24,349 nucleotides of DNA from Syntrophaceae bacterium UBA1163 (GTDB taxonomy: Bacteria; Desulfobacterota; BSN033; UBA1163), in contig DBZJ01000204.1 in assembly GCA_002311635.1 (NCBI GenBank), positions 1 to 24,349 on the forward strand. The letters are read 5' to 3'. Positions 19,196 to 23,965 of the stretch are shown here, one piece after another; positions within the stretch are counted from its first letter, which is position 1; each line of letters opens with the position of its first letter. The translations under genes were made by a program, and so were the position numbers. The notes below the pieces were generated by a model. It ran no database searches and was not told the DNA's origin. It was given only the letters and a program-made list of their open reading frames with translations.

Positions 19196-20398
19196 TCAAT
19201 TCATTCTTGGATCGAATAATGTTTGGTTTCTCAACATTGCAAAGATCACTCTAATTAGTTTATGGGCAGTTGCCAGCACAGCCATTTTGTAAGGCAACCC
19301 ATCCTTTATTCGCTTCAAGTAGTATTGTTTGAATCGTTCATTAAATTGGATGACCTTCGTTGTCATAATCCAGATCACCCGTCTGAGATGTCGATTGCCT
19401 CGCTTGGAGATCTTTCCCTTCCTATCGATCTTCCCTGATTGGTAAACGGCCGGATCGAGCCCTGCCATTGCAATCACCTTTTTATGACTTTCAAACTGCT
19501 TAATATCTCCACCTATCTCGATCAGAAAATTCACTGCGCTCTTCTCCCCGATTCCCTTCATAGAGGTAAGGATATCCTTCTCTCCCTGTACCTTCCCTTC
19601 GCAGAGTTCGATGAGGATATCCGTAAGCTCTTGGAGATGTTCTTCCATCTGGATCAGTAAGGATGTTTTCTGTCTGAGAATGATCTCCTTCGTAGCGCTT
19701 GACGTCCCTACAGATACCCGTGCAGCCTTTAGGATTCGGTCCACCGATACATCGGTTTGCTTCCCATACGATCCCGGTATCAGTATCTTAGCTATCTTGG
19801 AACGCTTGGCCTGCTTTATTGAAGCAGCAGAAGGATAGTGGCACAGCAGACGGAGCATGGATTTGTTAAAAATACCCGAAATATGTTCCAATTCAGGAAA
19901 GGTCATGGTCAGTAACCGCTTGATTTCACTCTTGGTCGAACTCATCTGGTCCACCAGACTCTCTCGTTGCCTGGACAGATCTCTGAGATCTGAGATGTCA
20001 GAAGAGAGGATGGTTTGAGAAAGGGAATCTCGGTTCAGAAGAAGAAACTGTGCAATCACAGTGGCATCTTTCCTGTCTGTCTTGGTCTTGCGTAGCTGAA
20101 GCTTCACGAAATGAGAAATAAGCAAGGGATTAATCACCATCACGGTATACCCTAGGGAGATAAGGAAAGAATAAAGGTTGACATGATAGCAGGCGGTTGA
20201 CTCCATGCCCACCAGGACAGACTCCATGGAAACAGACAGGCCACAGAGTTGCTTGATCAGCTCTTCAAACCCCTTCCTGTCCATCGAGGTAGATAGACTA
20301 AAAAGTCTTTCCCCCTTCATGTTGATACAGCACCCATCGAATGTCTCCTTGGAAACATCGATACCCAGAAACCATCTGAACCGCTGTGTTTCGTCCAT
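19196..20398 (-). CDS. IS110-family transposase (DEDD recombinase)
   Basis: The 400-aa product has the IS110 N-terminal RuvC-like domain: FLGIDVSKETFDG with the first Asp, VGMESTACYH with the Glu, and KTDRKDATVIAQFL with the last two acidic residues. A coiled linker follows. The C-terminal transposase domain has MKGIGEKSAVNFL and GLDPAVYQSGK, whose Ser is the expected nucleophile, then KRGNRHLRR. Enzymes of this family recombine DNA under guidance of a bridge RNA in the characterised relatives. ATG 20398 is chosen because AGGAGG stands seven bases upstream; longer in-frame starts lack this. All key residues seem present, so it may be active. Confidence 0.92.
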   Translation of the reverse strand: MDETQRFRWFLGIDVSKETFDGCCINMKGERLFSLSTSMDRKGFEELIKQLCGLSVSMESVLVGMESTACYHVNLYSFLISLGYTVMVINPLLISHFVKLQLRKTKTDRKDATVIAQFLLLNRDSLSQTILSSDISDLRDLSRQRESLVDQMSSTKSEIKRLLTMTFPELEHISGIFNKSMLRLLCHYPSAASIKQAKRSKIAKILIPGSYGKQTDVSVDRILKAARVSVGTSSATKEIILRQKTSLLIQMEEHLQELTDILIELCEGKVQGEKDILTSMKGIGEKSAVNFLIEIGGDIKQFESHKKVIAMAGLDPAVYQSGKIDRKGKISKRGNRHLRRVIWIMTTKVIQFNERFKQYYLKRIKDGLPYKMAVLATAHKLIRVIFAMLRNQTLFDPRMN

Positions 20399-20404
20399 AT
20401 CCAT

Positions 20405-20611
20405 TCCTCCTTTCCATCTTGGCATGGCCAAAGCAGGAATTGCCTCCCGACCAATCCTCCATCGTGACAAGGATTCTATGATCCAATCAACTTATTATGG
20501 CTTGGGAGGCAGGGGACAGACTGTACTAAGGATTCTCAGATCCAGGAAGAAATGAGCCCTCCTGCCTTTCCATGGCTAATCAATAAACTTTCACCCACAT
20601 AGATTTATACT
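20405..20611 (-). ncRNA. candidate bridge RNA region of the IS110 element
   Basis: This non-coding stretch lies between the element's end and the transposase start, where characterised IS110 members encode their bridge RNA. It holds a direct repeat, AGGATTCTATGATCCA (20470-20485) and AGGATTCTCAGATCCA (20529-20544), identical but for two adjacent bases, as would suit two guide loops sharing a core. GGGAGGCA (20504-20511) can pair with TGCCTCCC (20441-20448), and the overlapping AGGCAGG (20507-20513) can pair with CCTGCCT (20561-20567). Guide matches were not verified. Confidence 0.4.
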
Positions 20612-20629: not shown

Positions 20630-20700
20630 GAAGAAACAAGCGAAATATCCCTTTGCCAATTTTTAGGAATGAGCCGGTGGGGAGAAATAACGGGTACACC
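20630..20700 (+). repeat. 71-bp dispersed repeat, copy 2
   Basis: It aligns without gaps to 15425-15495 and 21373-21443. It begins within a few bases of the IS110 border, and the similarity of the other copies on its left side (ACGAAGA) is lost here, suggesting the IS inserted at its edge. Confidence 0.8.
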
Positions 20701-20759: not shown

Positions 20760-21206
20760 TTATCGGCATAGCTTCCGATACAGGGCTCCAATTGGCTGCT
20801 CTTCCATCACAGGAGCCCATTTATCCGATTGTTCCCTGTGGATGGCGCAGGGAGTATCGTCTCCTTCTCCCGGACAAAGCATAAAAAATTTTCTGCGCCA
20901 CTCTTTTCTCGGACAGTTTATTTCAGTCACGTTTATCTGGTAGACTACCTTCTCATACTCACTCCCAGCGAATCCCCTGGACCTCAATACTTCTTTCGTC
21001 TTGAAGACTTCTTTCCACCAAACCCTTACGATCCTCTCTGGAGATCTTGAGACGGTACCAGGGTCGTAATAAAAATCGCACTCTGCATCGCTCAAGAAGA
21101 ATTCCCAGTTCCCACTGTCTCCATATGCTCCGGTTTGAATCTCTACAAGACCGATCATCACAAGCACGATTCCCCATATCATCCATAATCGTCTCTTTTT
21201 GCCCAT
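20760..21206 (-). CDS. secreted surface-adhesin-E-like protein
   Basis: The 148-aa product has a Sec signal peptide: a basic MGKKRR start, a hydrophobic core WGIVLVMIGLVEI, and a likely cleavage after GAYG (about residue 29). The mature part (WEFFLSDAECDFYYDPGTV, then VRVWWKEVFKTKE, then W..PVMEEQPIGALYRKLC) follows the small beta-sandwich pattern of the Haemophilus surface-adhesin E family. Four cysteines probably form disulfides. AGGGAAAG before ATG 21206 supports the start. In most bacteria such domains are periplasmic proteins of unknown role, and adhesion is not implied. Confidence 0.65.
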   Translation of the reverse strand: MGKKRRLWMIWGIVLVMIGLVEIQTGAYGDSGNWEFFLSDAECDFYYDPGTVSRSPERIVRVWWKEVFKTKEVLRSRGFAGSEYEKVVYQINVTEINCPRKEWRRKFFMLCPGEGDDTPCAIHREQSDKWAPVMEEQPIGALYRKLCR

Positions 21207-21372: not shown

Positions 21373-21443
21373 GAAGAGGCAAACGAGATATCCCTTTGCC
21401 AATTTTCAAAAATGAGCCGATGGGGAGAAATAACGGGTACACT
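21373..21443 (+). repeat. 71-bp dispersed repeat, copy 3
   Basis: It aligns without gaps to 15425-15495 and 20630-20700. The GH57-derived fragment starts 39 bp beyond its right end. Confidence 0.8.
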
Positions 21444-22240: not shown

Positions 22241-22393
22241 TGAGGCACCTGTACCAATTGATTTTTGTCGCTGATCCAGCGGCGATTGCTGCAAAGGTTA
22301 GCCTTATTTGCCCCTTCGCGATTTATTGCTTGCGCTATTGATCGCGACTGACATGCGCTTGGGATAAGCAGAATTGAAATTGCAGGTGCCTTG
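22241..22393 (+). ncRNA. candidate retron msr-msd RNA
   Basis: The ends form an a1/a2-type duplex: 22241-22259 pairs with 22378-22393 (14 Watson-Crick and 2 G-U pairs, with a 3-nt bulge at 22252-22254). Enclosed are a stem TTGTCGCTG/CAGCGGCGA (22265-22273 with 22277-22285), a stem GCAAA-GG/CC-TTTGC (22291-22311), and TCGCGAT/ATCGCGA (22316-22322 with 22341-22347). G22260 directly follows a1, where a branching guanosine is expected, but the usual AGC context is absent. It lies directly upstream of a retron-type RT. Size and position fit; the function is inferred. Confidence 0.55.
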
Positions 22394-23965
22394 CCTCCCT
22401 TGTCTGCTTTCACCATATCGTATTTTAATGGTACTCAGGTGAGTGTTACTTTATCAGATGATGGAGCTCAGCTAAAGAGTAAATTTCTTTCTCTTAAGAC
22501 TCCCCAAGATATCGCGACCCTACTGGATGTTCCTTATAATCGTCTGATTTACCACCTTTACAGAAAACCTCCTGCAGATCGATACACAACCTTTACAATT
22601 GGAAAAAATAACGGCGAACTTCGGACCATATTAGCCCCAATTTCTTCTTTAAAGATCATCCAGAGGAAATTAAAGCAGGTATTAGAAAATGCTTACACAC
22701 CTAAGCCCTCCGTTCACGGCTTTGTATTAACCAAGAGTATACTAAGCAATGCGAGAATGCACACGAAACAGAGATACGTATTTAATGTTGATCTCAAAGA
22801 CTTTTTCCCTACGATAAATTTTGGTCGAGTCAGGGGCATGTTTATGGGTTTCCCTTATAAACTCCCTAAGAATGTTGCCACTGTACTGGCTCAAATTTGT
22901 TGCTTCAATAACCAACTTCCACAAGGGGCCCCCACATCACCAATTGTTTCGAATATGATCTGTGCCCATCTTGATAGTGACTTACAGCGTCTTGCAAAAA
23001 CTAACAAATCCATTTACACAAGATATGCAGACGACATCGCTTTCTCAACTTCAACAAGATCCTTCCCTCCATCGATAGCCACCATTGATAAGCTTGGTCA
23101 AGTGCAAGTTGGCAGAAAGTTAAACACGATCATCGTGAACAATGGTTTCGAAATTAAGCCAAACAAAGTTTGGTTACGGCAGAAAGACCGAAGACAGTTA
23201 GTGACAGGCCTGGTGGTCAATCAATTTCCTAACGTCCGCAGAAAATACACCAATCAAATTCGGGCAATGCTATACGCTTACTCCAAATTCGGACTCAAAG
23301 CAGCAAATGAAGAGTTTTTAAAATCATATGACCAAAAACACAGAGGGCCAACCAAAAATGCTCCGCGCTTTCAACTTGTCCTCAAGGGAAAACTTGACTT
23401 TCTTTCCATGATCAGAGGCAAAGACGATCCGCTTTACCTCCGTCTCGTTAATCAATTAAAATCAATAGGCCTCCTAGAGCGATTTGATTCACTTATAAGG
23501 TCAACAGACCATCAAGCGCGTGGTTATGAAGTGCAGAGTTTACTCAAGGAGGTGTTCGAAGTCTATGCGATTCCTGTGACGGGAAGCTTTACTCGAAATA
23601 AAGGCGCAGAGCAGATCGACGGCGCCTTTGAATTTGATGGCTGGCACTATATAGTCGAATGTCGCTGGCGCCAAGAAATTGCTAATGTTCGAGAACTTGA
23701 CGGTTTACATGGTCAAGTCTGTCGCGCAGGCAAACAAACCATGGGGCTCTTTTTGTCCATCAATGGATGGTCAAAGAATGTCCCCGAATTACTTAAACAA
23801 AATCCAGAAAAAGCAATACTGTTAATGGACGGCGAAGACTTATATATAGTACTTTCCGCTATAGTAACGCTTCCCAATCTTCTAAGAGCTAAGCTTGCCA
23901 GACTAAATCTCTATGCAGAACCCTTCTACTCTGCCAAAGAACTCATCTTGAAGGAGGGGTCGTAG
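22391..23965 (+). CDS. retron-type reverse transcriptase fused to a PD-(D/E)XK-like nuclease domain
   Basis: The 524-aa product has an N-terminal RT (about 30-330) and a C-terminal restriction-endonuclease-like domain (about 376-490). The RT shows NARMH (120-124, the retron NAxxH motif), DLKDFFPTI, QGAPTSPIVSN, the catalytic YADD (212-215) and VTG (271-273, the second retron hallmark). The nuclease part has GYEVQSLLKEVF, QIDGAFEF with D410, VECRW with E423 and R425 where Lys is usual, and GLFLSINGWS. It would make branched msDNA from the adjacent RNA, with the nuclease as a toxic effector released on phage infection, as in other retrons. TTG 22391 is the first possible start, with AGGTG just before it; GTG 22439 is the alternative. 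Base composition is visibly AT-richer than that of the metabolic genes. Confidence 0.88.
   Translation: MPPLSAFTISYFNGTQVSVTLSDDGAQLKSKFLSLKTPQDIATLLDVPYNRLIYHLYRKPPADRYTTFTIGKNNGELRTILAPISSLKIIQRKLKQVLENAYTPKPSVHGFVLTKSILSNARMHTKQRYVFNVDLKDFFPTINFGRVRGMFMGFPYKLPKNVATVLAQICCFNNQLPQGAPTSPIVSNMICAHLDSDLQRLAKTNKSIYTRYADDIAFSTSTRSFPPSIATIDKLGQVQVGRKLNTIIVNNGFEIKPNKVWLRQKDRRQLVTGLVVNQFPNVRRKYTNQIRAMLYAYSKFGLKAANEEFLKSYDQKHRGPTKNAPRFQLVLKGKLDFLSMIRGKDDPLYLRLVNQLKSIGLLERFDSLIRSTDHQARGYEVQSLLKEVFEVYAIPVTGSFTRNKGAEQIDGAFEFDGWHYIVECRWRQEIANVRELDGLHGQVCRAGKQTMGLFLSINGWSKNVPELLKQNPEKAILLMDGEDLYIVLSAIVTLPNLLRAKLARLNLYAEPFYSAKELILKEGS

Follow-up and report, generated by a model that had tools for sequence, protein, structure and literature searches.

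Retron reverse transcriptases (RTs) are marked by NAxxH, YxDD, and VTG motifs, and in single-gene retrons the RT is fused to its effector, as in Ec67/Eco2 (type I-C), type XI, and type XII. The Eco2 RT-Toprim protein is described as a self-inhibited trimer bound to multicopy single-stranded DNA (msDNA), with release proposed to follow degradation of the msDNA by phage DenB (PMC12405507). Here, we describe a predicted single-gene retron with a PD-(D/E)XK-like, restriction endonuclease (REase)-type domain fused to the RT, located on contig DBZJ01000204.1 of Syntrophaceae bacterium UBA1163. The window analyzed is this entire contig (24,349 bases; the genome comprises 4.08 Mb in 248 contigs). We consider the locus probably a retron of one non-coding RNA (ncRNA) and one protein (RT plus effector), in which an msDNA-inhibited nuclease would be freed by phage and lead to abortive infection.

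The fusion is encoded by an open reading frame (ORF; 22391-23965, + strand, 524 codons) at the far end of the window, with the following parts.

22442..23965, + strand: RT-REase fusion gene, with a probable GTG start (the family start aligns at V18); the ORF as listed starts at TTG 22391.
22457..23485, + strand: retron RT domain with thumb (residues ~23-365; best PADLOC stretch 30-364, Eco2 fold match 23-391).
23510..23860, + strand: predicted PD-(D/E)XK nuclease domain core (residues ~374-490, with Q382, D410, E423, and R425), from fold matches and conservation.

A first-pass annotation, made from the letters alone, had read this ORF as a retron RT with a nuclease-like tail, and the ORF and its motifs (NAxxH, YADD, VTG, EQIDGAFEF, VECRW, and GLFLSINGWS) lie where it put them. 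The RT is of the retron class, with N120-A121-R-M-H124, YADD at 212-215, and VTG at 271-273. Conservation was assessed on an alignment of 46 proteins, made up of the window protein plus 45 from the best 120 homologues listed: N120, A121, D214, D215, V271, and T272 are present in 46/46, and H124 and G273 in 45/46; in the nuclease domain, D410, E423, G459, and W460 are each present in 46/46. Because the RT and nuclease motifs are near-invariant across this alignment, they are, on sequence grounds, not chance. The RT groups with retrons rather than with group II introns by profile, and rather than with group II introns or diversity-generating retroelements (DGRs) by fold, as first proposed; the RT tree took in no group II or DGR row. 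In searches with PADLOC 2.0.0, NCBIfam 20.0, and Pfam, matches to the window protein were confined to its RT part. The highest-scoring PADLOC RT profile is type XI, its match ending at residue 364 (profile position 325 of 510), and neither a trypsin Pfam match nor the C-terminal trypsin-like feature of that type was found in the protein. Type XII profiles end at residues 359-361 (profile positions 330-333 of 475-478) and those of type I-C cover the RT part only, up to residue 361; neither the TIR nor the Toprim feature of these types was found.

The C-terminal domain has the core order helix-three strands-helix-strand (alpha-beta-beta-beta-alpha-beta) of the PD-(D/E)XK nuclease superfamily, and among its fold matches are modification-dependent cutters (MspJI, AspBHI) as well as FokI-type ones. 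Pfam Mrr_cat (PF04471) matched 17 of the 46 aligned proteins at E ≤ 0.01 (best, 3.2e-8), the window protein itself being unmatched. These matches bear out the nuclease-like domain of the first-pass annotation and point to a fused effector of predicted PD-(D/E)XK fold. The same domain occurs in stand-alone proteins (L010 991-1989, L035, L036, L039, and L043); with L036 as the query, 1,722 proteins were retrieved at E ≤ 0.001, and the motif pattern was matched in 81 of the 120 stand-alone relatives listed (39 off pattern), with Lys at the catalytic position in 81/81. The L036 protein (genome G217, of the window's phylum) matches P0122 (Trichlorobacter thiogenes) at 100% identity along its full length, so that this phylum is probably Thermodesulfobacteriota; L010 has a weak EAD1 match below the cut-off. 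L055 2740-3669 (Rhizobium ruizarguesonis plasmid) encodes 309 amino acids (aa) that match fusion residues 297-519 without the RT core, beside a SIR2 gene.

A third part, absent from the first-pass annotation, is a predicted structured msr-msd RNA with a1/a2 inverted repeats that adjoins the RT gene, its perfect 9-nt arms (22243-22251 and 22383-22391) lying upstream.

22241..22393, + strand: predicted retron ncRNA (msr-msd), ~150 nt, from the a1/a2 inverted repeat, the covarying msr hairpin, and the held-out covariance model R2.
22241..22253, + strand: a1 arm, with Watson-Crick core AGGCACCTG at 22243-22251; 13 pairs with G-U.
22265..22285, + strand: msr hairpin with loop UGAUCCA; 7 pairs, covarying across eight loci.
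22294..22305, + strand: putative further small msr hairpin (AAGG-UUAG-CCUU), identified by eye in sequence and alignment.
22316..22347, + strand: predicted msd stem (arms 22316-22329 and 22334-22347), a 14-nt inverted repeat, 79% complementary.
22381..22393, + strand: a2 arm, with core CAGGTGCCT at 22383-22391; contains TTG 22391-22393.

Eight loci were compared for the ncRNA: the window and L046 (RT-REase), L001, L022, and L023 (RT-trypsin), L054 (RT-Toprim-like), and L052 and L053 (unfused RT). Of the RT-REase loci, two had DNA available: the window and L046, whose nuclease part is frameshifted. The loci pair their own a1/a2 arms over 9, 16, 10, 8, 10, 10, 10, and 7 bp, and arms paired between different loci reach a mean of 5.6 and a maximum of 9 (56 pairings). 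For the window arms, the 9-bp core was equalled in 3/300 shuffles and the 13 pairs with G-U in 1/300; the L046 arms (16 nt, similar spacing) differ from them, and a block around GTCGCTGATCCAGCG is common to both loci. In the msr alignment, which was built from sequence and not fitted to structure, 98.2% of hairpin cells are paired and 5 of the 7 pairs are altered on both sides (equalled in 3/500 shuffles); the covariation score is 0.714, where shuffles average 0.416 (0/500 as high) and sliding gives at most 0.286. R2, a covariance model from the six non-RT-REase loci (window and L046 held out), scored 32.1 bits (E 0.0002) at 22247-22325 of the window and 25.3 bits (E 0.01) at L046, with no match in 11 other loci. 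Over the window's own 4.08-Mb genome, with 150 of 326 first-look candidates scored, R2 matched only the window site (E 0.0106) at E ≤ 10. Rfam had no match at the locus.

The two loci with unfused RTs of the same clade and the same msr, L052 2450-6053 (Geminocystis plasmid) and L053 2450-6032 (Picosynechococcus pAQ5), continue with a 262- or 301-aa protein (no PADLOC match, no Pfam match above the cut-off) and then an ATPase (partial sequence) with a WYL profile match (6e-8 and 2e-9, respectively); they are possibly another untyped retron. As an informal sign, the N-terminal extension of the RT-REase P0060 has letters resembling the translated msr region of L046.

The gene start, first placed at 22391, is probably GTG 22442 instead, giving 507 aa, because TTG 22391-22393 falls inside the a2 arm and the N termini of many relatives (MSL...) align with V18, which is GTG 22442. 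This codon lies 48 nt past the a2 arm, and the ATG of L046 lies 36 nt past its own a2.

The working we propose starts from what computation places at the locus: the two domains, the predicted ncRNA with its structure, the clade of the RT, and the conserved acidic residues. By analogy with Eco2, the nuclease would be held by msDNA and released by phage. The RT would copy the msd part into a short DNA still joined to RNA (the msDNA), and the RT-msDNA complex would keep the C-terminal PD-(D/E)XK nuclease inactive. A phage product that destroys, modifies, or binds the msDNA would free the nuclease, probably in the form of a dimer or a larger assembly, to cut DNA inside the cell, so that abortive infection would stop phage growth. 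Here msDNA synthesis, self-inhibition, trigger, and DNA target are all modeled on relatives, from which we also infer the anti-phage role of the fusion.

Several results weigh against this reading. Arg takes the place of the usual catalytic Lys in 29/46 proteins, the window protein (R425) among them, and Foldseek gives the nuclease domain structural matches of moderate TM-score (0.4-0.5). Six of the eight ncRNAs belong to sister retrons with other or separate effectors, and a1/a2 pairing alone is weak and not significant in either L054 (27/300 shuffles as good) or L022 (99/300; 158 with G-U). R1, a model built including the window, matches 8/35 sources, each a training locus; the msr marks part of the clade and not all of it, since the 27 sources without an R1 match include the single-gene retrons L016, L017, L018, and L047. 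The claim that the fusion has no partner gene on either side holds upstream as far as the scans reach, an IS110 transposase gene (19196-20470, − strand, ending 1.9 kb away) being the nearest among ten ORFs covered by Pfam, but downstream only 384 nt separate the gene from the contig end, and because the contig stops there a partner gene could lie beyond it.

One alternative, which we hold unlikely, is that the nuclease-like domain is inactive (Lys to Arg, helix Glu to Gln) and functions in DNA binding or assembly, with another gene, beyond the nearby contig end or elsewhere, encoding the true effector. The window protein combines Q382 with R425, as do 19/46 proteins in all, and the pattern-matched stand-alone relatives uniformly keep Lys; D410 and E423, however, are retained in all 29 Arg forms, and Lys and Arg switched at least three times on the tree of the 46 (four Arg rows stand within a Lys clade), which fits tolerance of a basic residue better than it fits decay. 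The best 120 homologues listed, moreover, cover 75-99% of the query. It is also rather improbable that the msDNA remains attached to guide or license cutting instead of only inhibiting it: nuclease and RT-msDNA would share one chain, and the fold matches include MspJI, AspBHI, and FokI-type cutters, but self-inhibition is described for Eco2, the closest relative that has been studied. That the protein is a group II intron or DGR RT carrying an unrelated tail, or that misassembly produced the fusion by chance, is highly implausible: RVT_1 is common to all these RT classes, yet retron profiles and fold fit instead, a retron ncRNA is predicted at a locus without an Rfam match, and the full-length architecture is repeated in many clusters.

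The homologue search gave 7,924 of 7,999 scored candidates at E 0.001, most known only as resembling the query somewhere; the best 120 listed (window included) are 424-588 aa long, and among these sequences the full-length fusion recurs widely. Among 395 genomes of the window's phylum, a whole-profile match occurred only in the window, and four genomes of the same genus had no match at E ≤ 1e-30, which together suggest horizontal spread. We found no description of an RT-REase fusion in the literature searched; it may be listed already, the paper defining the classification being outside the comparison. The bolder proposal of an untyped, widespread class of msDNA-gated, single-chain restriction-like nucleases, with repeated Lys/Arg shifts (Gln/Arg in the window) and msDNA licensing or directing cutting rather than only blocking it, seems to us doubtful as a whole. 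Now that the ncRNA is located, a cassette of roughly 1.8 kb would suffice to test the system directly; the recurrent Lys-Arg exchange, at a catalytic position that is usually fixed, poses a question of its own, answerable on the isolated domain.

The rest of the window is mostly metabolic (fumarase, aconitase, citrate synthase, a family-57 glycosidase, and succinate dehydrogenase/fumarate reductase flavoprotein and Fe-S protein). Between IS110 and the retron lie short ORFs, of which 20763-21206, run against PADLOC, had no match, and a 70-nt direct repeat (89% identical copies at 20630-20699 and 21373-21442, 743 nt apart). An AAA ATPase gene (1-1482, − strand) is truncated by the contig end; its PADLOC IetA match (1.2e-19) probably reflects the AAA domain only. 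The genome also encodes a second retron-like RT of 305 aa (G000:C49:34102-34797, L042) and a group II-type RT (G000:C16, L002), each with its best NCBIfam score below the cut-off.

Among known systems, the first-pass annotation named Ec67 as having a fused effector; this stands, but more such systems exist, with PADLOC single-gene models RT-Protease_XI and RT-TIR_XII. Ec67/Eco2 likewise encodes a single RT-effector gene, its effector being Toprim and that of the window predicted PD-(D/E)XK; the msr model had no match at L017 and L018. Type XI (RT-trypsin-like protease; e.g., L001, L016, L022, and L023) resembles the window in its top-scoring RT profile and in the msr hairpin, found also in L001, L022, and L023 (the first and last with clear a1/a2 arms) but not at L016; it differs in its serine protease effector, and PADLOC XI spans nearly the whole profile there and only the RT part in the window protein. 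Type XII is likewise a single gene with a related RT, with TIR as effector instead. Mrr_cat/FokI-type nucleases and the stand-alone relatives (L010, L035, L036, L039, L043, and P0122) have the same core fold and QxD...ExK/R motif, P0122 with 36% identity over 138 residues; the stand-alone proteins are not joined to an RT and, where the pattern matched, carry the catalytic Lys. A restriction-type effector would thus join the Toprim, trypsin, and TIR fusions among single-gene retrons with closely related RTs and, for some, the same msr, a natural series for how one RT-msDNA core could gate unrelated effectors.
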